Positions 123 to 39,876 of a DNA stretch of 64,000 nt are shown here, piece by piece. Where the stretch lies: the NCBI RefSeq assembly GCF_009834025.1, contig NZ_CP047156.1, positions 496,001 through 560,000 of the forward strand. Reading direction: 5' to 3'. The notes under the pieces are model-generated. The model saw only the letters and a list, made by a program, of their open reading frames with translations. It made no database searches and had not been told where the DNA came from. Made by a program: the position numbers and the translations under genes. Position 1 is the stretch's first letter; every line of letters begins with the position of its first letter. This stretch comes from Epidermidibacterium keratini (GTDB taxonomy: Bacteria > Actinomycetota > Actinomycetes > Mycobacteriales > Antricoccaceae).

Positions 123-899
123 GTGGCCGGAATGAGTGTCTGGGAGATCGTGCTGCTGGTCGTCGGCGGTCTGCTCGGTGGCGGCATCAACGCGATCGCG
201 GGCGGCGGTTCGCTCGTGGTCTTCCCTGCTCTTCTGGCGACCGGGATGAGCCCGCTGGTCGCTAACGTCACGAACTCCGTCTCGCAGTGGCCGGGCTACA
301 TCGGCGGGGTCATCGGCTTCTGGCCGGACCTCAAAGATCAGACGCACCGCGTCCGGCAGGTCTCGCTGGTAGCGATCGCCGGCTCGGCTCTGGGCTGCGT
401 CCTGCTGCTCACGCTTCCATCGAGCTCTTTCGATGCCATCGTGCCGGCGCTGGTCATCCTGGCCGCCGTCATCCTCTACTTCCAGCCTCGGCTCAAGGCG
501 TACGCCGCTGCCCGACAGTCGGCAAAACCCGGTACGCCAGCGGCAATGTACGTCGTACTCTTCCTGGCTGCGACGTACGGCGGCTACTTCGGCGGCGCGC
601 TCGGCGTCATCCTCCTCGGTGCGCTCGCGATGGTCTCGCCGGACTCACTGCGCCGCAACAATGCCGTGAAATCGGCGATCTCGCTTGTCGTCGCGACCGT
701 CACGGTCATCGCGTTCGGCATCTTCGGACCGGTTTCCTGGCTCGCGGTTGCGCTGATCGCACCGGCCGCGCTGCTGGGCGGCGTACTCGGGGCCAAGGTG
801 GCGCGACGCATTCCCGAGGGCGCGTTGCGGTGGACCGTGATCGTGCTGAGCCTGGGAGTCGGAATCTACCTGGCGGTCAGAGCGATCCAAGGTGGCTGA
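123..899 (+). CDS. TSUP family (TauE/SafE) membrane transporter
   Basis: A 258-residue integral membrane protein of the sulfite exporter TauE/SafE (TSUP, DUF81) family, which moves small anions such as sulfite, sulfonates or organic acids. The two family half-repeats are visible. The first is GGINAIAGGGSLVVFPALL near the N-terminus, followed by a conserved NxTNS segment. The second is GGYFGGALGVILLGAL near the middle, followed by RRNNAVKSAISL. About seven to eight hydrophobic segments are present. The start used is GTG 123; ATG 132 (MSVWEIVLL) is equally possible because no clear ribosome binding site separates them. It converges with the RNase H/phosphatase gene and overlaps its end by 23 bases. 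The substrate cannot be read from the sequence. Confidence 0.85.
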   Translation: MAGMSVWEIVLLVVGGLLGGGINAIAGGGSLVVFPALLATGMSPLVANVTNSVSQWPGYIGGVIGFWPDLKDQTHRVRQVSLVAIAGSALGCVLLLTLPSSSFDAIVPALVILAAVILYFQPRLKAYAAARQSAKPGTPAAMYVVLFLAATYGGYFGGALGVILLGALAMVSPDSLRRNNAVKSAISLVVATVTVIAFGIFGPVSWLAVALIAPAALLGGVLGAKVARRIPEGALRWTVIVLSLGVGIYLAVRAIQGG

Positions 900-2112
900 T
901 CTCGTTGACCAGCTTGACCACCGTGCGGCCTTCGTAATAGTCGATCCTCGAAAGCGAGCACAAGTCGAGGTTGATCCGGCCCGCGGCCTTGGCGCTACCG
1001 AGCGCCTCGCCGAGTAGCGACTTGATCGGGGTGACGTGGGTGACGACCAGCACCCGCTGATCGGCGTACTCGCGAAGCAGTGAGTTGCGCAGATCAGCGA
1101 CCCGCTCGAGGCACTGCGCCTGGCTCTCGCCACCGGGCGGGGCCGCATCGGGCGAACCGAGCCATGTCCCGAACGCATCGCCGGCGGCCCGGCGCGCTTC
1201 ATCGAACGTCAGCCCTTCCCAGTCGCCGAAGTCGATCTCGCGCAGCCGTTCGTCGACCTTGACCGGTACGCCGAGCGCCTGGCCGACAGCCTGCGCGGTC
1301 TGCTGAGCGCGACGCAGCGGTGAGCTGAGCACGGCGGAGATCTGCCCGGCCTCGATCGAGTCGGCTACCCGGCTCGCCGCGGCCGCTGCCTGCTGCTCGC
1401 CCTTGGGTGTGAGCGGCAAGTCGGTGCGGCCGCTAAAGCGCCTTTCCAGACTCTGCTCTGTCTCACCGTGGCGCAGCAGCACCAGGCTCAGCTTTGGCGG
1501 CGGGCCGGGGGCTGCGGTGACGAGGTTTGGCCGCGCCGACGCAACTTCTCTCGGATCGAGCGCAACTTCTCTCGGATCGGCGGAATTAACGCTCGGATCG
1601 GCGGAAACAACGCTCGGATCGGCGGAATTAACGCTCGGATCGGGGGAAATAACGTTCGGATCTGGGGGGTTTGGGGGTGGGGTGTCGGGGATGCGGTCGA
1701 CCGAGGAGCGGTTGTCCATCGCCTCGTTGGCGAGCGCATCGGCAGCCGCGTTTTCCAGGCGAGGGATCCAGTGCAGCTCGACCCGGGCAAACTCATCCAG
1801 CAGCCGCCGGGCCTGCAGCGCCAGCGGTTGCAGCGTGGCGTTCTTGATCTTCCAGCGCCCGCTCATCTGCTCGACGACGAGCTTGGAGTCCATCCGCACG
1901 TCCAGCTCGTCGATGTCGAGCTCGCGCGCGGCTTCTAGCGCGGCAATCAGCCCGCGGTACTCCGCGACGTTGTTGGTGGCGGTGCCGATGTACTCCGCCC
2001 GCTCGGCGAGCACCAGACCGGACTCGGAATCGCGTACGACGGCGCCGTACCCCGCAACGCCGGGGTTCCCGCGTGACCCACCGTCGGCCTCGGCGATGTA
2101 GCGCGCGCTCAC
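877..2112 (-). CDS. Bifunctional RNase HI / acid phosphatase with repeat-encoded linker
   Basis: A 411-residue fusion resembling mycobacterial Rv2228c. The N-terminal RNase HI domain (about 1-140) begins RYIAEADGGSRGNPG and keeps the acidic metal-binding set: D10, the Glu in NNVAEYRG, the Asp in RMDSKLV and the Asp in ENAAADALANEA. It should cleave RNA in RNA-DNA hybrids. The C-terminal histidine-phosphatase (CobC-like) domain starts at LVLLRHGETEQS and has the second His in VVTHVTPIKS. The GTG start at 2112 overlaps the stop of the upstream zinc-ribbon gene (GTGA), which favours it over a longer reading. The linker at about residues 150-191 consists of heptads such as DPSVNSA encoded by a 21-bp tandem repeat; this insertion is odd and is listed separately. 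Confidence 0.92.
   Translation of the reverse strand: MSARYIAEADGGSRGNPGVAGYGAVVRDSESGLVLAERAEYIGTATNNVAEYRGLIAALEAARELDIDELDVRMDSKLVVEQMSGRWKIKNATLQPLALQARRLLDEFARVELHWIPRLENAAADALANEAMDNRSSVDRIPDTPPPNPPDPNVISPDPSVNSADPSVVSADPSVNSADPREVALDPREVASARPNLVTAAPGPPPKLSLVLLRHGETEQSLERRFSGRTDLPLTPKGEQQAAAAASRVADSIEAGQISAVLSSPLRRAQQTAQAVGQALGVPVKVDERLREIDFGDWEGLTFDEARRAAGDAFGTWLGSPDAAPPGGESQAQCLERVADLRNSLLREYADQRVLVVTHVTPIKSLLGEALGSAKAAGRINLDLCSLSRIDYYEGRTVVKLVNEISHLGSL
1540..1663 (-). repeat. Six-unit 21-bp tandem repeat array A (inside the RNase H/phosphatase gene)
   Basis: Read on the minus strand, the core GATCCG recurs six times at exactly 21-bp steps; on the plus strand CGGATC starts at 1552, 1573, 1594, 1615, 1636 and 1657. 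Units begin GATCCGARCGTT and end in CCGCC or CCCCC. The last two units instead read GATCCGAGAGAAGTTGCG. Because 21 bp equals seven codons, the array is translated in frame as DPNVISP, DPSVNSA, DPSVVSA, DPSVNSA, DPREVAL and DPREVAS. The same six-unit layout occurs at 36829-36954. Confidence 0.93.
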
Positions 2113-2966: not shown

Positions 2967-4340
2967 ATGGCGATCGCCACGATCAACCCGGCCACCGGGG
3001 AAACGATCAAGACCTTCACTCCCGCCACCGCAGACGAGATCACCGATGCGATCGAGCGGGCGAGTACGACGTTCGAGAGCTACCGCACGACCGCCTTTGA
3101 GCAGCGGGCTGGCTGGCTGCGTGCCACCGCCGACCTGCTCGAAGCCGAAGCCGACGACGTCGCGAAGACGATGACGCTGGAGATGGGTAAGACCCTGGAG
3201 TCGGCCAAGGCCGAAGTTCTCAAGTGCGCCAAGGGTTTTCGCTACTACGCCGATCACGGTGAGCAGATGCTCGCCGACGAGAAGGCCGACGCCGAGGCTG
3301 TCGGTGCGAGTGCGGCGTACGTCCGCTACCAGCCGCTGGGCGTCGTACTCGCCATCATGCCGTGGAACTTCCCGCTGTGGCAGGCAGTGCGCTTTGCCGC
3401 TCCAGCGCTGATGGCCGGCAACGTCGGACTGCTGAAGCACGCCTCAAACGTGCCGCAGTGCGCCCTCTATCTCGCCGATGTCATTCGCCGTGGTGGGTTT
3501 CCCGAGGGCTGCTTCCAGACGCTGCTGATCGGATCGAAGGAGGTCGAGGCGATCCTGCGTGACCCACGAGTCGCCGCTGCCACCTTGACCGGCAGCGAGC
3601 CCGCGGGCCGCTCAGTCGCAGCGATCGCCGGTGACGAGGTCAAGCACACCGTGCTTGAGCTCGGCGGCAGCGACCCGTTCGTCGTCATGCCGTCGGCCGA
3701 CATCGCCAAGGCCGCGGAGGTCGCAGTGACGGCGCGCGTGCAAAACAACGGCCAGTCGTGCATCGCCGCCAAGCGGTTCATCGTGCACACCGACGTCTAC
3801 GACGAGTTCACGACCGAGTTCGTGGACCGGATGAAGAAGCTCACGGTCGGCGACCCGATGGACCCCGACACCGACGTGGGTCCGCTCGCCACCGAGCAGG
3901 GCCGCACCGACGTTGAGGTGCTCGTCGCCAACGCGGTCGGCGCCGGAGCCACGGTGCTGACCGGTGGCGAGCCGATCGACCAGCCGGGTTGGTTCTACCC
4001 GCCGACCGTCATCGGCGACATCACGCCGGAGATGGATATGTACACCGCCGAGGTCTTCGGCCCAGTCGCGTCGCTGTACCGGGTCGGCGACATCGACGAG
4101 GCGCTGCAGGTGGCCAACGCGACGTCGTTCGGGCTGGGCTCCAACGCGTGGACCACGGACGCGGACGAGCAGGAGCGGTTCATCAACGGCCTCGAGGCCG
4201 GGCAGGTGTTCATCAACGGCATGACCGTCTCCTACCCCGAGCTGCCCTTCGGCGGGATCAAGCGTTCGGGCTACGGCCGCGAGCTGTCCGAGCACGGCAT
4301 CCGCGAGTTCTGCAACGTCAAGACCGTCTGGGTCGGCTAG
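2967..4340 (+). CDS. gabD1: NADP-dependent succinate-semialdehyde dehydrogenase GabD1
   Basis: A 457-residue aldehyde dehydrogenase very close to mycobacterial GabD1, which oxidises succinic semialdehyde to succinate with NADP. It starts MAIATINPATGE and carries the cofactor loop LTGSEPAGRSV, the catalytic Glu in VLELGGSDPF and the catalytic Cys in NNGQSCIAAKRF. The C-terminus reads PFGGIKRSGYGRELS. ATG 2967 is chosen because AAGGA at 2954-2958 lies eight bases upstream; in-frame starts at 2946 and 2958 would overlap that site. The gene stands alone, diverges from the zinc-ribbon gene and converges with the symporter gene across a long hairpin. Confidence 0.93.
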   Translation: MAIATINPATGETIKTFTPATADEITDAIERASTTFESYRTTAFEQRAGWLRATADLLEAEADDVAKTMTLEMGKTLESAKAEVLKCAKGFRYYADHGEQMLADEKADAEAVGASAAYVRYQPLGVVLAIMPWNFPLWQAVRFAAPALMAGNVGLLKHASNVPQCALYLADVIRRGGFPEGCFQTLLIGSKEVEAILRDPRVAAATLTGSEPAGRSVAAIAGDEVKHTVLELGGSDPFVVMPSADIAKAAEVAVTARVQNNGQSCIAAKRFIVHTDVYDEFTTEFVDRMKKLTVGDPMDPDTDVGPLATEQGRTDVEVLVANAVGAGATVLTGGEPIDQPGWFYPPTVIGDITPEMDMYTAEVFGPVASLYRVGDIDEALQVANATSFGLGSNAWTTDADEQERFINGLEAGQVFINGMTVSYPELPFGGIKRSGYGRELSEHGIREFCNVKTVWVG

Positions 4341-4354
4341 CGCCGTACCCGTCC

Positions 4355-4407
4355 TGCGGTGGAACCGGACACCCTACGGCGCGCGCAGGGTGTCCGGTTC
4401 CACCGCA
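4355..4407. terminator. Perfect 21-bp-arm hairpin between convergent genes
   Basis: Arms at 4355-4375 and 4387-4407 are exact reverse complements (left arm begins TGCGGTGGAACCGG) with an 11-base GC-rich loop. It lies between the gabD1 stop and the symporter stop, so it can end transcription from both sides. There is no T-tract, which is usual for actinobacterial terminators. Confidence 0.8.
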
Positions 4408-4415
4408 GGTGGGTG

Positions 4416-29361: not shown

Positions 29362-30783
29362 ATGACCCAGGCTCCCCAGAAGCCCGACACCGCCGTCGAG
29401 GTCGACCCCCGCGACCCGGTCGCGCGCCTGGCGACCCTCTTTGACCCAAACACCTTAGAGCTGGCCAACAGCCGCGACGAGGGCACTGGTGTGGTGTGGG
29501 GCCGCGGCGCGATCAACGGCTCACCTGCCGTCGCGTTCTGCACCGACGCCACCAAGATGGGCGGTGCGATGGGCTCGGAGGGCTGCGTCAACATCGTCGA
29601 TGCGATCGAGACCGCCAACCGCGAGCGCATCCCGGTCATCGGCATCTGGCACTCCGGCGGTGCCCGGCTGGCCGAGGGCGTCGAGGCGCTCGACGCGGTC
29701 GGCAAGGTCTTCGCCGCGATGGTGCACGCCTCCGGGCGCATCCCCCAGCTATCGGTCGTACTCGGCCCGGCTGCCGGCGGTGCGGCGTACGGTCCGGCAT
29801 TGACCGACGTGGTGATCATGTCGGGTTCTGGGCGCGTGTTCGTGACCGGCCCGGAGGTCGTGCGGTCGGTGACCGGCGAGCAGGTCGACATGGAGATGCT
29901 CGGCGGACCGGACACCCACGGCAAGAAGAGCGGCGTCGTACACATCACCACCCCCACCGACCAGGACGCGCTCGACACGGCGCGCGAGCTCGCAACTTTG
30001 CTTGGCGAGCAAGGAAAGTTCGATGTCAGCAAGGCACGGGTGATGCCGGAGCTCGAGGACGCGTTGCCGGAGTCGCCGCGCCGCGCGTATGACGTGAAGC
30101 CGATCCTGCGCATGCTGCTTGATGACGGCGAGTTCCTGGAGATCCAGGCCAAATGGGCGCCCAACATCGTGGTCGGCTTCGGGCGGATGGCCGGGCGCAC
30201 GGTCGGCGTCGTTGCCAACAACCCGATCCGCCTCGGCGGGTGCCTGGACTCCCAGAGCGCCGAGAAGTCGGCCCGCTTCGTGCGGCTGTGCGACGCGCTC
30301 GGCATCCCGCTCGTGGTGATCGTCGACGTACCCGGCTATCTGCCCGGTGTCGGTCAGGAGTGGGACGGCGTCGTACGCCGTGGCGCCAAGCTGCTGCACG
30401 CCTTCGCCGAGTGCGTCGTACCGCGCGTGACCCTGGTGACGCGCAAGGTGTACGGCGGCGCCTACATCGCGATGAACTCCCGCTCACTCGGCGCGACGCG
30501 AGTCTTTGCCTGGCCCACCGCCGAGGTGGCCGTCATGGGCGCCAAGGCCGCGGTCGGCATCCTGCACCGCAAGACCCTGGCGGCGACGCCGATCGAGGAG
30601 CGCGACGAGGTCGAGGCGCGGCTCATCGAGGAGCAGGAGCGCATCGCCGGCGGCGTGGCCCGCGCGTTGGAGCTGGGCGTCGTCGATGAGGTCATCGACC
30701 CCGCGCAGACGCAGGTCCAGCTGGTCAAGGCGCTCGCTTCACGGCCGAGCGGGCGCGGAGCCCACGGCAACATCCCGCTCTAG
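29362..30783 (+). CDS. Acyl-CoA carboxylase beta subunit (AccD6/PccB type)
   Basis: A 473-residue carboxyltransferase subunit of acetyl-/propionyl-CoA carboxylase. Acyl-CoA and biotin sites show as IWHSGGARLAEGVEAL, LGPAAGGAAYGPALTD and, in the second half, VPGYLPGVGQEWDGV, RKVYGGAYIAMNSRSLGA and WPTAEVAVMGAKAAVGIL. A location right after fabF, as in the mycobacterial accD6 locus, suggests it supplies malonyl-CoA to fatty acid synthesis. ATG 29362 follows GGAGG. The biotinylated alpha subunit must be encoded elsewhere. Confidence 0.93.
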   Translation: MTQAPQKPDTAVEVDPRDPVARLATLFDPNTLELANSRDEGTGVVWGRGAINGSPAVAFCTDATKMGGAMGSEGCVNIVDAIETANRERIPVIGIWHSGGARLAEGVEALDAVGKVFAAMVHASGRIPQLSVVLGPAAGGAAYGPALTDVVIMSGSGRVFVTGPEVVRSVTGEQVDMEMLGGPDTHGKKSGVVHITTPTDQDALDTARELATLLGEQGKFDVSKARVMPELEDALPESPRRAYDVKPILRMLLDDGEFLEIQAKWAPNIVVGFGRMAGRTVGVVANNPIRLGGCLDSQSAEKSARFVRLCDALGIPLVVIVDVPGYLPGVGQEWDGVVRRGAKLLHAFAECVVPRVTLVTRKVYGGAYIAMNSRSLGATRVFAWPTAEVAVMGAKAAVGILHRKTLAATPIEERDEVEARLIEEQERIAGGVARALELGVVDEVIDPAQTQVQLVKALASRPSGRGAHGNIPL

Positions 30784-30789
30784 CCCGCA

Positions 30790-30890
30790 CCCCTCGCCCG
30801 CCGTACCCCTCGCGCCGTATCCCGCGAGCGCCGTACCCCTTCGCCCGCCGTACCCCTTCGCCCGCCGTACCCCTTCGCCCGCCGTATCCC
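30790..30890. repeat. Short 17-bp tandem repeat downstream of accD
   Basis: GCCGTA recurs at 30800, 30814, 30830, 30847, 30864 and 30881. The last four starts are exactly 17 bp apart, with unit GCCGTACCCCTTCGCCC; the earlier copies are degenerate. The array is intergenic and followed at once by the long hairpin at 30926-30976. Confidence 0.85.
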
Positions 30891-34727: not shown

Positions 34728-36842
34728 ATGGCTCGCGCCGAGACCGACACAGCCGGTAGCGAGCCGCAGGAGAAGTTCCAGCTCGCGCCCGCCCAACGCC
34801 GTGTCTTCGTCGGCTTGATGTTGGGCATGTTCGTCGCCTCGGTCAGCCAGACGATCGTCGGCCCCGCGATGCCGCGCATCGTCGCCGAGCTCGGCGGGAT
34901 CGACCACTACAGCTGGGTCGCCACGGCGGCCATGCTGGTCTCGGCGATCACCGTCCCGACGGTCGGCAAGCTGTCGGACATCTACGGCCGCCGGCCGTTT
35001 TACCTCGCCGGCATCCTGGTCTTCCTGACCGGCTCGCTCGTGTGCGGGCTCGCCCAGAACTTCTGGATCCTCGTCGCCGGCCGCGCCATCCAGGGCATGG
35101 GCATGGGCACGCTGATGCCGCTGTCGCAGACGATCATCGGCGACATCGTGCCCGCGCGTTTCCGCGGCAAGTACCAAGGCTTGATGGGCGCGGTTTTCGG
35201 CGTCACCTCGGTCGCAGGGCCGATCGCCGGCGGCGCGATCACCGACCAGTTCGGCTGGCGGTGGCTGTTTTACGCGACGCTGCCGATCGGGCTTATCGCG
35301 TTCTTCTTCATCATGCGGTTCCTGCATCTGGACCACACCCCGCGCAAGGTCAAGATCGACAAGGCGGGGATCGTCACGTTGAGCGTCGGGCTGGTGTGTG
35401 TGCTGCTGGCCACCTCATGGGGCGGTACGACGTACCCGTGGGGCTCGCCGATGATCCTCGGGCTGTACGTCGTGGGGTTCGCCGTACTCGTCGCGTTCGT
35501 GATGATCGAGCGCCGCGCCGAAGAACCGGTCATCCCGCTGCGCCTGTTTAGCAACTCGATCTTCGCGTGGTCGAACGTTGGCAACTTCACCGTGTCGATG
35601 CTGATGTTCGGCTCGATCATCTACATCCCGATCTATGCCCAGGGCGTCATCGGTGTCAACGCGACGAACTCCGGGCTCATCCTGATGCCGCTGATGCTTG
35701 GCTTCATCGTGCTCGGCATCGGCACCGGCATGATGATCACCCGCACCGGTCGCTACAAGGAGTTCATGCTCGCGGGTGTCGCGATCCTCGGCGTGGGCGT
35801 TTGGCTGCTGACGCGGCTGCGCTACGGCTCCACCGCGGGCGAGCTGACGGTGGCGATGGTCGTCATCGGCGTCGGACTCGGACTCGTCGTGCAGCAGTAC
35901 ACCCTCGTCATCCAAAACGCGACGGCGCGCCGGGATCTCGGTGTCGCGACGGCGTCCAGCCAGTTCTTCCGCAACGTCGGATCGACCGTGGGCATTGCGA
36001 TCTTCGGCTCGGCAATGACCGCGGGGCTGACCGGCGCGATCGCCCGATACCTGCCGCCGGGAGCCGCCGAGGCGATGCCCGAGGGTGCGACCGTCGGGGC
36101 GGGCGCCGTACTCGACCCCGCTGCGCTGGAAGGACTGCCGGCACCGGTCGTCGAGGCCGTACGACACGGGCTCGCCGACCAGATGCACATCGTGTTCTTG
36201 ATCGGCATTCCGATCGTGATCGCCGCGTTTATCGCGACGCTCATGATCCGGGTGATCCCGCTACGCGAGACGATCGCCGAGCCCGACGAGCAGCCCGGCG
36301 GCGAAATCGACTCGCTGGCGCAGACTGCCCGCTCGACCCGCGGTCTGGTGCCCGGGCTCGCTTCCGGCGATCCCGGCGAACGCACCCGAGAACGCCTGCT
36401 GGGGCTGCAGTTTCGGCGGCTCGCGGAACGTTCTCAAGAGGCCGACCACCCGTTGCTGCACGCCGCGGTGACCCAGCTCGGTGACGGCGACTTCGCGCGT
36501 GGCGTGGCGCTGTTGGAGCGGACCGCGGCGATGCTGACGACCTCCGACCCCGAGGTCATGGCCGAACAGGAGCGGTTTGCCGTCGAGGTCGCGCACCGCG
36601 CCGGCGACGGCATCCTCTCCCCCGAACTGCGCCAGGAACTGGCGGTGCGCGCGAGCGAGGGCAACGGCGGCGTACTCGATGAGATCGAGCCGACGGTCGC
36701 CGACCGCTACGAGGCCGTTGACCTGGAGAAGCTGCGCCAGGCCAGCAGCGAGCTCGTCGCCACCCTGCTCATCGACGTCGCTACCCCAGACCCCGCTGCC
36801 CCACTGAACTCAACCGCCGCGCACCCCAGATCCGAACGTTAA
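34728..36842 (+). CDS. MFS drug exporter (DHA2 family, 14 TM) with long cytoplasmic tail
   Basis: A 704-residue transporter. The first about 510 residues have the 14-helix DHA2/EmrB pattern, with VSQTIVGPAMPRIVAEL in TM1 (motif D1-like), GKLSDIYGRRPFYL (motif A) and GAVFGVTSVAGPIAGGAI (motif C). Residues about 510-704 form a hydrophilic, helix-prone tail (LLERTAAMLTTSDPEVMAEQ) that most relatives lack. It probably exports toxic compounds by proton antiport. Its stop codon TAA is created by the first unit of the 21-bp repeat array, so the end of the gene may have been set by that insertion. Confidence 0.85.
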   Translation: MARAETDTAGSEPQEKFQLAPAQRRVFVGLMLGMFVASVSQTIVGPAMPRIVAELGGIDHYSWVATAAMLVSAITVPTVGKLSDIYGRRPFYLAGILVFLTGSLVCGLAQNFWILVAGRAIQGMGMGTLMPLSQTIIGDIVPARFRGKYQGLMGAVFGVTSVAGPIAGGAITDQFGWRWLFYATLPIGLIAFFFIMRFLHLDHTPRKVKIDKAGIVTLSVGLVCVLLATSWGGTTYPWGSPMILGLYVVGFAVLVAFVMIERRAEEPVIPLRLFSNSIFAWSNVGNFTVSMLMFGSIIYIPIYAQGVIGVNATNSGLILMPLMLGFIVLGIGTGMMITRTGRYKEFMLAGVAILGVGVWLLTRLRYGSTAGELTVAMVVIGVGLGLVVQQYTLVIQNATARRDLGVATASSQFFRNVGSTVGIAIFGSAMTAGLTGAIARYLPPGAAEAMPEGATVGAGAVLDPAALEGLPAPVVEAVRHGLADQMHIVFLIGIPIVIAAFIATLMIRVIPLRETIAEPDEQPGGEIDSLAQTARSTRGLVPGLASGDPGERTRERLLGLQFRRLAERSQEADHPLLHAAVTQLGDGDFARGVALLERTAAMLTTSDPEVMAEQERFAVEVAHRAGDGILSPELRQELAVRASEGNGGVLDEIEPTVADRYEAVDLEKLRQASSELVATLLIDVATPDPAAPLNSTAAHPRSER

Positions 36843-36954
36843 TCCCGCCGATCCGAACGTTAATCCCGCCGATCCGAACGTTAATCCCGCCGATCCGAGC
36901 GTTATTTCCGCCGATCCGAGCGTTATTTCCGCCGATCCGAGAGAAGTTTCTCGC
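36829..36954 (+). repeat. Six-unit 21-bp tandem repeat array B (intergenic)
   Basis: GATCCG starts at 36829, 36850, 36871, 36892, 36913 and 36934, exactly 21 bp apart. The first three units read GATCCGAACGTTAATCC, the next two GATCCGAGCGTTATTTCC, and the sixth GATCCGAGAGAAGTT. The order and number of units match array A at 1540-1663: both start in CCAGATCCGAACGTTA or its near copy and finish with GAGAGAAGTT units. The array begins inside the last codons of the MFS gene and runs into a 50-bp palindrome. Confidence 0.93.
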
Positions 36955-36982
36955 GGATCCGCGAGGAACTTCTCTCGGATCG
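36933..36982. terminator. 50-bp near-perfect palindrome ending repeat array B
   Basis: The sixth repeat unit (CGATCCGAGAGAAGTT) is followed by the palindrome CTCGCGGATCCGCGAG and then by the inverted sixth unit (AACTTCTCTCGGATCG). Only one T/G position departs from full symmetry. It ends three bases before the stop of the convergent reductase gene and would form a very stable hairpin in RNA from either strand, so it probably terminates both genes. Confidence 0.85.
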
Positions 36983-36985
36983 CGC

Positions 36986-38032
36986 TTAGGCGGCGACGGG
37001 TACGCCGTTACCTTCGGTGACCTCTTCGCCCTTGGCGACCGGGCCGGGCGGCGTACCGTCGCCAAACGGTGAGCCGCCGAGCTCCTCACGCCCGTGCTTG
37101 GTCAGCCAGTTGCGCAGGTCCGGGCCCTTCGGCACGATCTGCGTCGGGTTGATGTCGGTGTGCACGATGTAGTAGTGCTGCTTGATCTGCACGAAGTCGA
37201 CGGTGTCACCGAAGCCCGGCGTCTGGAACAGGTCGCGCGCGTAGCCCCACAGCGCCGGCATCTCCGACAGCTTGCTGCGGTTGGCCTTGAAATGCCCGTG
37301 ATAGACGGGATCGAAGCGCACCAGCGTGGTGAAGAGGCGGATGTCGGCCTCGGTGATGTGATCGCCCATCAGGTAGCGCTGGCCCTGTAGCCGATCCTCA
37401 AGCACGTCGAGCTGGGCAAAGAGCCGGTCGTACGCCGAGTCGTAGGCGTCCTGGTCGCCCGCGAACCCGCACCGGTAGACGCCGTTGTTGACCTCGGTGT
37501 AGATGGGGCGCATGACCTCCTCCATCTCATCGCGCAGCGCCTCCGGGTAGAGGTCCGGGGCGCCGTCACGGTGAAAGCGGGTCCACTGGGTGGAGAAGTC
37601 GAGGGTGATCTGCGGGAAGTTGTTGGTCACGACGCCGCCGGAGGGTACGTCGACGATGGCCGGCACGGTGATGCCGCGCGGGTAGTCCGGGAACCGCTTG
37701 AGGTAGGCATCGCGAATCCGCGGGATCTGCAGCACCGGGTCGAGCCCGTCGGGATCGAGATCGAAGGTCCAGCTGAGCTTGTCGTGGGTGGGTCCGCAGA
37801 TCCCCATCGAGATCGCGTCCTCAAGGCCAAGTAGCCGCCGCACGATGGTGGTGCGGTGCGCCCACGGGCACGCGCGAGCGACGACCAGCCGGTAGCGCCC
37901 GGCCTCGACGGGCCACTCCGCGCCGGGCTCATCGAGGATCCGGTCCTCGATGTAGTTGGTGTCGCGGTTGAAGGACTGCCCCTTCACGCGGTAGACGCCA
38001 GCCTCGCTGTGTTCCGGGTTCTCGTTGCTCAT
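36986..38032 (-). CDS. Glutathionyl-hydroquinone reductase-like GST family protein
   Basis: A 348-residue protein of the Xi-class GST family (YqjG/EcM4 type). The catalytic cysteine is C55 in VVARACPWAHRTTIVRRLLG. Other family blocks are GICGPTHDKLSWTFD, GVVTNNFPQITLDFS, VYRCGFAGDQDAYDSAYDRL and LMGDHITEADIRLFTTLVRF. Such enzymes remove glutathione from glutathionyl-hydroquinones. Most actinobacteria use mycothiol in place of glutathione, so the natural thiol here is probably different. ATG 38032 diverges from mutA. Confidence 0.88.
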   Translation of the reverse strand: MSNENPEHSEAGVYRVKGQSFNRDTNYIEDRILDEPGAEWPVEAGRYRLVVARACPWAHRTTIVRRLLGLEDAISMGICGPTHDKLSWTFDLDPDGLDPVLQIPRIRDAYLKRFPDYPRGITVPAIVDVPSGGVVTNNFPQITLDFSTQWTRFHRDGAPDLYPEALRDEMEEVMRPIYTEVNNGVYRCGFAGDQDAYDSAYDRLFAQLDVLEDRLQGQRYLMGDHITEADIRLFTTLVRFDPVYHGHFKANRSKLSEMPALWGYARDLFQTPGFGDTVDFVQIKQHYYIVHTDINPTQIVPKGPDLRNWLTKHGREELGGSPFGDGTPPGPVAKGEEVTEGNGVPVAA

Positions 38033-38082: not shown

Positions 38083-39876
38083 ATGCCCCACGAATCTAAG
38101 TTGAGCCTCGGTGCGACGCCAGCTGCGACGGCAGAGCAGTGGCAGCAGGCGGTCGCTGCGGTGCTCGTCAAGTCCAAGCGTATGGCGGAGTCGGATGATC
38201 CCGCCGACGCGCCGCAGAAACTGGCCAAGCACACGACGGACGGCATCGAAATCGCGCCGCTCGCCGGCAGCGATGTGGCGCGCGAACTGGCGAGTACGCC
38301 GACCGGCTCCGACGCGGTCCGAGGCCATCTGCAGTCGCAGGTCCCCGAGCCCGGCGACGTCCCGACATGGGATCTGCGGGTCTTCATCAGCGACCGCACC
38401 CAGCAGCCCACTGATGCCCTGGAGGGCGGCGCGGGCTCGCTGTGGCTGTCCAGTCGCGCCCTCGGGGGTGTCGGCGCCGTACTCGACGGCGTCCTGCTCG
38501 ACGTCGCGCCGGTCGTACTCGACTCGGCCGACCCCGTCGCCGACGGCACCGAGCTGATCAACGCGGCCGGCGGCGCGCTGCACCCGCACAGCAACCTCGG
38601 ACTCGACCCGACCGGTGAGCTGCTGCTGACCGGTACGCCGGCCGATGCCCAGATCGCCGAGGTCGCCGCACTGGCGCGCGATAACTCCATCCGCGGGTTC
38701 GTGATCGACGCCAGCATCGTGCACGATGCGGGCGCCGGCGAGGTGCTTGAGCTCGCGTACGCCGCCGCGGCGGGCGTGCAGCTGCTGCGCCGGCTCGACG
38801 AAGCCGGTATCGACGCCTCGCAGGCAGCCGGGCTGATCGAGTTCCGGTACGCCGCCACTGACCAGCAGTTCACCACGATCGCCAAGCTGCGCGCGGCCCG
38901 CGCGATCTGGGCGCGGATCTGCCAGGTCGCTGGCATCGACGACGACGTCCAGGCCCAGCACGCGGTCACCTCGGGCCGGATGATGACGCAGTTCGACCCG
39001 TGGACCAACCTGCTGCGCACGACAATCGCAACGTTTGCCGCCGGAGTGGGTGGGGCCGACGCGATCACCGTCCAGGAGTACGACGCCGCGCTCGGTGCGT
39101 CCGACGACTTCAGCCGCCGGATGGCGCGCAACATCTCTAACCTGCTGGTCAACGAGTCGCACATCGGGCAGGTGCACGACCCGGCAGGCGGCTCGGGCAG
39201 CATCGAGCGGCTGACCGACGATCTGGCCCGCGCGGGCTGGGCGAAGTTCACCGAGATCGAGCGAGACGGTGACATCCGCGCGTTCATCGCCGACGGCTCG
39301 CTGGCGAAGGAGCTCGACGCCGCGATCGCCCGACGCACTGAGGCGATCGCTAAGCGTGAGCAGCCGATCACCGGGATCAGCGAGTTCCCACTCGCCGACG
39401 AGACGATGCTGGCACGTGAGCCTGGTTACTCCCGGTACGCCGAGGGCGCGCTGATCCGTCCGGTGCGCGACGCCGACGGCTTCGAGCAGCTGCGCCGCGA
39501 GCCTGCCACCCGACCGGTCTTTTTGTGGCCGATCGGCCCACTCGCTGCGCACACTGCGCGCGCGACGTTTGCTGCCAACCTGCTGACGGCCGGCGGGATT
39601 CCCGTCGTACAAGGCAAAGCCGGTGCCGACTTCGACACGCTCGCCGCCGCGGCTCGTGAGGCCGGAACGAGCGTGATTTGTCTAGTCGGCAGCGATGAGG
39701 GGTATCGGACAGAGGGGCCGGCTCTCGTCAAGCAGCTGCGAGGAGTCGGTCCCGCCCACATCATCAACGCCGGCAAGCCGGTCAGCGAGATCGCTGACCT
39801 CGTCGACGACTTCATGGCGGTGCGCCAGGACGCACTGGCGTTCCTCAACCGCACCCGCACGGCCCTGGAGGATTAG
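38083..39876 (+). CDS. mutA: Methylmalonyl-CoA mutase small subunit MutA
   Basis: A 597-residue non-catalytic partner of MutB. It has the mutase TIM-barrel region ([40 protein letters not shown]) and a degenerate C-terminal cobalamin-like domain ([13 protein letters not shown]) without the DxHxxG cobalt-ligand motif, as expected for this subunit. It is the first gene of mutA-mutB-meaB, with mutB starting four bases after its stop. Confidence 0.95.

Follow-up and report, generated by a model that had tools for sequence, protein, structure and literature searches.

Repetitive extragenic palindromic (REP) sequences and bacterial interspersed mosaic elements (BIMEs) of enterobacteria are extragenic, occur in many copies at 3' ends and can form hairpins when inverted. 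Plasmid-origin iterons are direct repeats of about 21 bp with a conserved core, and the Sal-box/TTF-I arrays of eukaryotic rDNA are an analog of a roadblock formed on duplex DNA. Mycobacterial interspersed repetitive units (MIRUs) are described as apparently mobile and as inserting at start codons with a spacing of -4 nt (PMC12548453). Rho utilization (rut) sites are presented as C>G bubbles with YC repeats (PMC9160355), and the RhoTermPredict rule defines them through composition and spacing, not sequence (PMC6407284). Here we analyze a stretch of 64,000 nucleotides from Epidermidibacterium keratini (contig NZ_CP047156.1, positions 496,001 to 560,000), called the window in its full length. 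It contains array B, a series of 21-bp repeats at the end of a major facilitator superfamily (MFS) transporter gene, and array A, a similar series inside another gene. We propose that array B belongs to a dispersed family of sense-strand elements at gene ends, each of which would end transcription of the preceding gene in a Rho-type manner, a reading to which we assign a probability of about 0.5 from the sequence data. Comparisons were made with four relatives (G001-G004), of which G001 belongs to a sister genus in the same family.

A dispersed family of polar 21-bp arrays

The genome of the window is a single contig of 4,018,808 bp. A 28-mer pair pattern gave 84 + 69 matches in it and 0 for the reversed control. 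In 53 stretches of this genome we found at least 74 arrays with a minimum of two units each, 313 units in all. The number of arrays is a lower bound because some genomic matches lie outside the stretches examined; the first 44 stretches cover 136 of the 153 pair matches, a figure that predates the nine stretches added afterwards. The preliminary description had regarded A and B as twin copies, which is not what the genome contains, and insertion of one mobile element at these two sites is too narrow an explanation for at least 74 arrays.

Units were detected by an ATCCGA-containing core with up to 2 substitutions, which accounts for part of the near-invariance of the core (GATCCGA/ATCCGA); the spacer is more variable. 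The distance between units was 21 bp in 222 of 239 cases and 22 bp in 13, so the 21-bp period noted before is preferred but not strict. Arrays of 2, 3, 4, 5, 6 and 7 units numbered 4, 18, 20, 22, 9 and 1, respectively, with array B counted as 7 units by including a degenerate one. Unit types tend to run from AACGTTA through GCGTTA and GAGATA to GAGAAA. This order was found in 282 unit-type pairs and the reverse in 23, whereas 2000 shuffles averaged 153 ordered pairs and never exceeded 188. Core identity was 0.88 among first units of different arrays and 0.75 between first and last units. First units are more C-rich (GATCCGAACGTTAATCCCGCC), last units are G/A-rich (GATCCGAGAGAAA), and many arrays stop right past the core, at GATCCGAGAGAAA.

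Dozens of copies with a usual start on the stop side, a usual end and a polar order uphold the earlier view of one defined element as opposed to chance arrays. The genome-wide unit search with periodicity analysis proposed there returned many copies with common ends, and not just two copies without shared ends. As to array length, whose random variation was named there as an argument against a defined element, the number of units does vary, but copies and ends hold. A plain variable-number tandem repeat (VNTR), generated by slippage in unconstrained DNA past stop codons, would explain the range of 2 to 7 units, and some actinobacteria do have other tandem repeats past stops (11 of 816 stops, all with periods different from 21). 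A simple VNTR without constraints on order or site would not share its unit among dozens of sites, exceed every shuffle in unit order, keep usual ends and be accompanied by the upstream synonymous difference described below, and we consider this already disfavored origin highly improbable.

Genes were called with a custom codon-model caller rather than taken from an annotation, and some genes may have been missed. A sense gene ended near the array start, with its stop between 45 nt before and 25 nt into the array, in 45 of the 74 arrays, compared with 20 of 600 random positions. The stop codon was TAA in 40 of these 45 cases and in 55 of 345 genes without array (p = 8e-23; 53 of 342 if each gene is counted once). 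For arrays that merely point towards a stop, TAA was found in 4 of 16. The commonest offsets between stop and array were +4 (TAACCGC|GATCCG and similar) and -14, at which the TAA within the unit serves as the stop. Back-up termination of translation by a TAA every 21 nt in AACGTTA units was rejected as the general cause, since the TAA-free unit of G001 has an equal placement.

By gap type, 23 arrays were convergent, 36 tandem and 10 divergent. With each gap counted once, the 61 gaps with an array comprised 19 convergent, 33 tandem and 9 divergent ones, and the 215 array-free gaps of at least 20 nt comprised 25, 126 and 64, respectively. Convergent gaps are thus enriched (p = 6e-4) and divergent gaps depleted (p = 0.02). 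In tandem gaps 26 arrays were sense and 10 antisense (p = 0.011). This dispersal over the chromosome, mostly at gene ends, does not support the earlier comparison to iterons.

With regard to a KOPS-like polarity along the chromosome, plus and minus arrays are interspersed in the array lists. Neighboring arrays 250-5000 bp apart mostly face each other (11 +-, 4 -+, 1 ++), and among the tail-to-tail junctions four share a length of 34 bp and two are 48 bp. Recurring junction lengths, the conserved core with a more variable spacer, the predominant 21-bp spacing, the usual start and end at the core and the polar order would fit a specific protein that polymerises on phased 21-bp sites of duplex DNA at gene ends, where it could act as a roadblock, an insulator or a chromosome-organising site. 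The unit of the sister genus, which retains GATCCG and 21 bp with a different core, is in line with this. A duplex-DNA array by itself leaves unexplained the preference for C, not A or T, at silent sites of the sense strand over about ten upstream codons, as well as the low RNA structure. Spacing of 22 bp is also seen in both genera, and a duplex-DNA array appears rather doubtful to us. The ordered protein-binding array suggested earlier agrees with the conservation of the GATCCGA core, but the strand-specific synonymous change upstream points to the transcript and not only to duplex DNA.

Silent-site change and occurrence in relatives

Upstream of the arrays the sequence is rich in C and poor in G. 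Over about 50 nt C rises and G falls, reaching fractions of 0.61 and 0.12 in the final 10 nt (74 arrays). No C/G skew was seen after arrays or at the ends of array-free genes. The leader occurs with or without a preceding sense gene (three classes of 45, 24 and 5 arrays), including the 29 arrays that lack a recognised gene end.

The effect extends into the coding sequence. For the 29 genes with an array 3-25 nt past the stop, the C:G:A:T ratio at fourfold sites of the last five codons was 91:5:4:0, compared with 474:350:118:76 in 315 genes without array (p = 3e-15 for C:G). In codons 6-10 the C:G ratio was 65:16 in array genes and 460:330 in array-free genes, and in codons 11-20 the two groups showed no significant difference at fourfold sites. 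Because A and T are also depleted, the silent sites show a preference for C that goes beyond mere avoidance of G. At first codon positions G was nearly kept (0.39 vs 0.43) and at second positions there was some loss (0.15 vs 0.25). Genes towards which an array only points showed no clear silent-site effect (C:G 27:15, n = 16).

For 27 of the 29 array genes, C-terminal segments were used to search G002-G004, and filters (45% identity, C-terminus reached) retained 52 ortholog C-termini for 22 genes. Among fourfold codons for the same amino acid in the last ten codons, C in E. keratini stood against G in the ortholog 62 times and the reverse occurred 5 times. At more than 25 codons from the end these numbers were 1153 and 1100 (end vs elsewhere p = 8e-13); both sets of counts include several orthologs per site. 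Per gene, 21 went up and 1 went down. TAA stops were present in 19 of the 22 array genes and in 6 of the 52 orthologs, and since TAA is the only G-free stop, a single effect may account for both its enrichment and the change at silent sites. The silent-site difference goes with the array-bearing lineage, presumably through a change to C there. A preference of arrays for pre-existing C-rich targets is disfavored by the ortholog ends, which are not C-rich (165 C:120 G). Much more firmly than Rho-type termination, we hold that an array and the end of the gene before it constitute a single sense-strand unit under selection.

Of 120 relatives and 395 other genomes of the phylum, two sets that overlap by at least 15 genomes, none contained the E. 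keratini unit. Plasmid and phage records contained no match, nor did viral contigs searched with the exact pattern. At seven array loci compared with G002-G004 the array was absent there. Such lineage specificity would be expected of a selfish, MIRU-like small dispersed repeat that copies to gene ends as harmless sites and has no cellular function. The in-frame copy of array A within a gene linker also agrees with this, as does an apparent clustering of copies, with 22 gaps of <5 kb between arrays vs 6.5 expected, a value inflated by the detection of weaker arrays only within the stretches examined. Neither the directed shift of silent sites to C in the native gene nor the excess of TAA stops is predicted by a neutral repeat. 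Furthermore, no target-site duplication was recognised by eye when array-free and array sites were compared, no mobilising gene was identified, although no systematic search for one was made, and matches in plasmids, phages and viral contigs are lacking, which makes a selfish repeat unlikely.

The sister genus has its own 21-bp family, GATCCGTCACGAATGTCCGGC, with 228 matches at up to 3 mismatches in G001 and 8 for the reversed control. In 20 stretches around these matches the arrays had the same architecture as in E. keratini, often with TAACC heads past stops. TAA was the stop codon in 9 of 15 array-followed genes and 19 of 99 others (p = 0.002). Compared with E. keratini, G001 has a shorter C leader (23 arrays) and a weaker effect at silent sites, with C:G ratios of 32:8 vs 140:94 in the last five codons (p = 0.02) and no significance farther in. 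One intergenic region, among the 20 G001 stretches compared, carries an array in both E. keratini and G001 (L146/L180). In two other G001 stretches (L164 and L165), array starts at contig ends continue into a common sequence, which by eye resembles an insertion-sequence end within an array.

Period-21 repeats past stops were found at 3 of 93 stops in G004 (two gaps) and at none of the 120 stops of G002 or the 123 stops of G003 examined. Those of G004 (L202, 3824-3890; L207, 18435-18505) are GC-rich, lie directly past stops and are unrelated to the E. keratini unit. In Mycobacterium barrassiae and M. shimoidei short tandem repeats start at stops (L043, 796-842, and L098, near 9441) with periods of 14 and 11.

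RNA structure and proposed Rho-type termination

RNA downstream of array genes is predicted to be weakly structured. The 70 nt past the stop had a mean folding energy of -12.5 kcal/mol (z +0.21) for 42 sense-only arrays and of -25 to -31 kcal/mol for three classes of array-free E. keratini genes (60 each), and about 30% of convergent or long-gap ends of array-free genes had z < -2. Three tail-to-tail cases form an exception to the weak structure (-21.7 kcal/mol, with hairpins). In a paired folding over 135 nt for 22 genes, the array genes averaged -32.5 kcal/mol and their orthologs -55.7 kcal/mol (p = 1e-6).

The sense-strand effect, the low structure and the repeated core past the stop might also reflect an mRNA 3'-end element, in which an RNA-binding protein occupies weakly structured repeats and shields the transcript from 3' exonucleases or controls translation. 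The convergent enrichment and divergent depletion suit termination better, and a binding site in the 3' untranslated region requires no C preference reaching into the coding sequence; we judge this function quite improbable.

For rut composition we re-implemented the first step of the RhoTermPredict rule (PMC6407284), a best 78-nt C/G ratio of >1.5. The threshold was exceeded in 28 of 29 array genes (97%) and in 10 of 10 of the '-14' class, compared with 30% of 310 array-free genes and 35% of 52 orthologs. A ratio of >2 was reached by 59% of the array genes, 60% of the '-14' class, 5% of the array-free genes and 6% of the orthologs. YC counts were 31.2 in array genes vs 22.5 in orthologs. A single rho gene is present in each of the five genomes (E. 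keratini and G001-G004).

Rho-type termination would involve an element of two parts: a C-rich, G-poor leader that starts about ten codons upstream of the stop and usually runs through the G-free TAA, and a polar array of mostly 3-6 units of 21 nt. The leader and first units could form a Rho loading site on ribosome-free, unstructured RNA, and the conserved array downstream may slow RNA polymerase, bring it to a halt or serve as the binding site of a partner factor. Where two such elements lie tail to tail, as at some convergent genes, they are predicted to form a hairpin as well.

Several observations weigh against this proposal. No sense gene end was recognised just upstream of 29 of the 74 arrays (24 outside and 5 inside genes). 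The spaced-YC chain barely discriminates, with values of 6.0 and 4.7 for two array classes, 5.4 for array-free genes and 5.9 for orthologs. The pause consensus in the 3' half was just slightly above shuffles (0.0315 vs 0.0254 per nt), and the C excess within the arrays themselves is small (0.054 vs 0.008). G002-G004 have Rho too, yet the E. keratini unit was not found there. Hairpins were not commoner among orthologs of array genes (7 of 52) than among other genes (23 of 150), so that arrays as replacements of hairpin terminators are unsupported, though two aligned loci hinted at this by eye. To our knowledge Rho requires no conserved 21-mer, so that the GATCCGA core calls for either an additional factor or a process of copying.

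A sequence-specific terminator of a new class is a tentative possibility. A lineage-specific factor or an adapted Rho system would then read the polar 21-nt array, genes would have been driven to silent C in the last ten codons and to TAA, and the code would diverge from genus to genus (GATCCGAACGTTA and GATCCGTCACGAA) with the architecture kept. Rho-dependent terminators are hard to spot as they have no sequence signature, whereas here, within one small genome, dozens of putative gene-end elements carry a visible one and are accompanied by a measurable mark at silent codon positions in the preceding gene. If the arrays are terminators, they would offer a genome-wide test of what high-GC actinobacteria need for stopping transcription, and selection for termination would act within coding sequence. 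The differing unit of the sister genus could provide a way to trace the change of such a recognition code.

The window loci and comparison with known systems

The features of the two loci are collected in Table 1.

Table 1. Features of the array B and array A loci, in window coordinates.
Feature	Position	Strand	Basis or remark
Array B, six direct 21-bp units (3 AACGTTA, 2 GCGTTA, 1 GAGAGAAG type)	36829..36948	+	unit calls
C-rich, G-poor leader of array B, within 3' end of MFS coding sequence	36779..36828	+	28 C, 8 G per 50 nt
TAA stop of MFS gene, part of array B unit 1 ('-14' class of arrays)	36840..36842	+	
Short inverted array (a good unit plus a degenerate one), 4 nt past TAA of GST-domain gene	36947..36981	-	
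Tail-to-tail junction of array B with inverted array, 48 bp	36934..36981	.	22-bp hairpin
MFS transporter gene upstream of array B	34728..36842	+	Pfam
GST-domain gene, convergent to MFS gene	36986..38032	-	Pfam; ends in TAA
Array A, six sense-oriented in-frame units, in fusion-gene linker	about 1543..1662	-	
C-rich leader of array A, coding for proline-rich linker	1663..1712	-	30 C, 6 G per 50 nt
RNase H-phosphatase fusion gene carrying array A	877..2112	-	Pfam

As stated in the preliminary description, array B has six units at 21-bp spacing (starts at 36829, 36850, 36871, 36892, 36913 and 36934, plus strand) and lies between convergent genes. The region 36829-36982 had been taken as one array, but its last part is the start of the short inverted array. 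Array B had also been called non-coding, which is not wholly correct, since the stop codon of the MFS gene lies in unit 1 of the array. A and B do share six units, an AACGTTA start and a GAGAGAAG-type last unit, with unit series that are similar and not identical. Contrary to what had been claimed, not all units have (A/G)CGTT: GAGAGAAG takes its place in the final unit of B and in the final two units of A.

The direct part of array B alone had a folding z of +1.55, i.e. less structure than most shuffles. The tails of array B and the inverted array pair into the 22-bp hairpin with -42.2 kcal/mol. A terminator-like U tract or site was looked for at this tail junction and none was found, so that the junction does not qualify as an intrinsic terminator. 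The best 78-nt C/G ratio of array B was 3.1. In G002 and G003 the ortholog of the MFS gene lies directly next to the ortholog of the window gene at 38161, which indicates that array B and the GST-domain gene are extra in E. keratini.

Array A lies between two domains assigned by Pfam, the one RNase H-like and the other a histidine phosphatase. Its series consists of AACGTTA, GCGTTA, GCGTTG, GCGTTA and two GAGAGAAG units, with the AACGTTA unit first and GATCCGAGAGAAGTT at the end. The RNase H-phosphatase fusion also occurs in the four relatives, where it has no array. A repeat peptide encoded in frame was rejected as the purpose of the arrays, as just 5 of 74 lie inside genes.

Other repeats occur near gene ends. 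A very C-rich tandem array with a period of about 17 (CCGTACCCCTTCGCCCG) is located at 30785-30890 of the window, right past the TAG of gene 29362-30783 (+), and CCGTACCCCTTCGCCCG had one more single match within 3 mismatches in the E. keratini DNA examined. Inverted repeats with CACCTGCGGTGGAACC follow stops at 4333-4415 of the window and in stretch L131; the 14 matches of CACCTGCGGTGGAACC (up to 2 mismatches in 514 kb, without a chance control) perhaps represent a second gene-end hairpin family. A TGGTTGAGCAGC-like sequence at L135, L146 and other E. keratini loci, with 178 matches (up to 2 mismatches in 514 kb, without a chance control), is possibly a REP-like family. In stretch L118 (4101-5115) about 1 kb between two inward-facing arrays contains a 316-codon open frame (-) that the gene caller did not call. 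At the counterpart of this locus in G004, the corresponding convergent genes are separated by just 67 bp with a hairpin-like sequence.

We know of no described element that joins the properties of the E. keratini arrays. Literature searches, which covered titles and abstract openings with subscription journals largely outside their scope, returned no description of such an element. The features tested set it apart from intrinsic terminators, REPs, MIRUs and iterons. Like REP and BIME sequences the arrays are present in many copies at 3' ends and form a hairpin when inverted; they differ in having direct, non-palindromic units, with single arrays being weakly structured and a strong hairpin arising only where two arrays meet. 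With plasmid iterons they share direct repeats of about 21 bp with a conserved core, but the 74 arrays are dispersed over a 4-Mb contig, mostly at gene ends and not at one origin, and plasmid records gave no match. MIRUs are likewise dispersed actinobacterial repeats fitted to gene boundaries (PMC12548453). A MIRU would be expected at a start codon, with a small open reading frame coupled to the gene that follows. The arrays described here are usually anchored to stop codons (45 of 74) rather than start codons, and they have a polar 21-bp unit and a C-rich leader.

The element would work most like a Rho-dependent terminator, a type defined by 3' ends that depend on Rho. The array regions are C-rich, G-poor and weakly structured at the RNA level for some 78 nt or longer around the point where translation ends, and the array genes pass the C/G part of the RhoTermPredict rule (PMC6407284). 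The difference from Rho-dependent terminators lies in the conserved, ordered 21-nt array found at dozens of loci and in the preceding coding sequence, which differs at synonymous sites.

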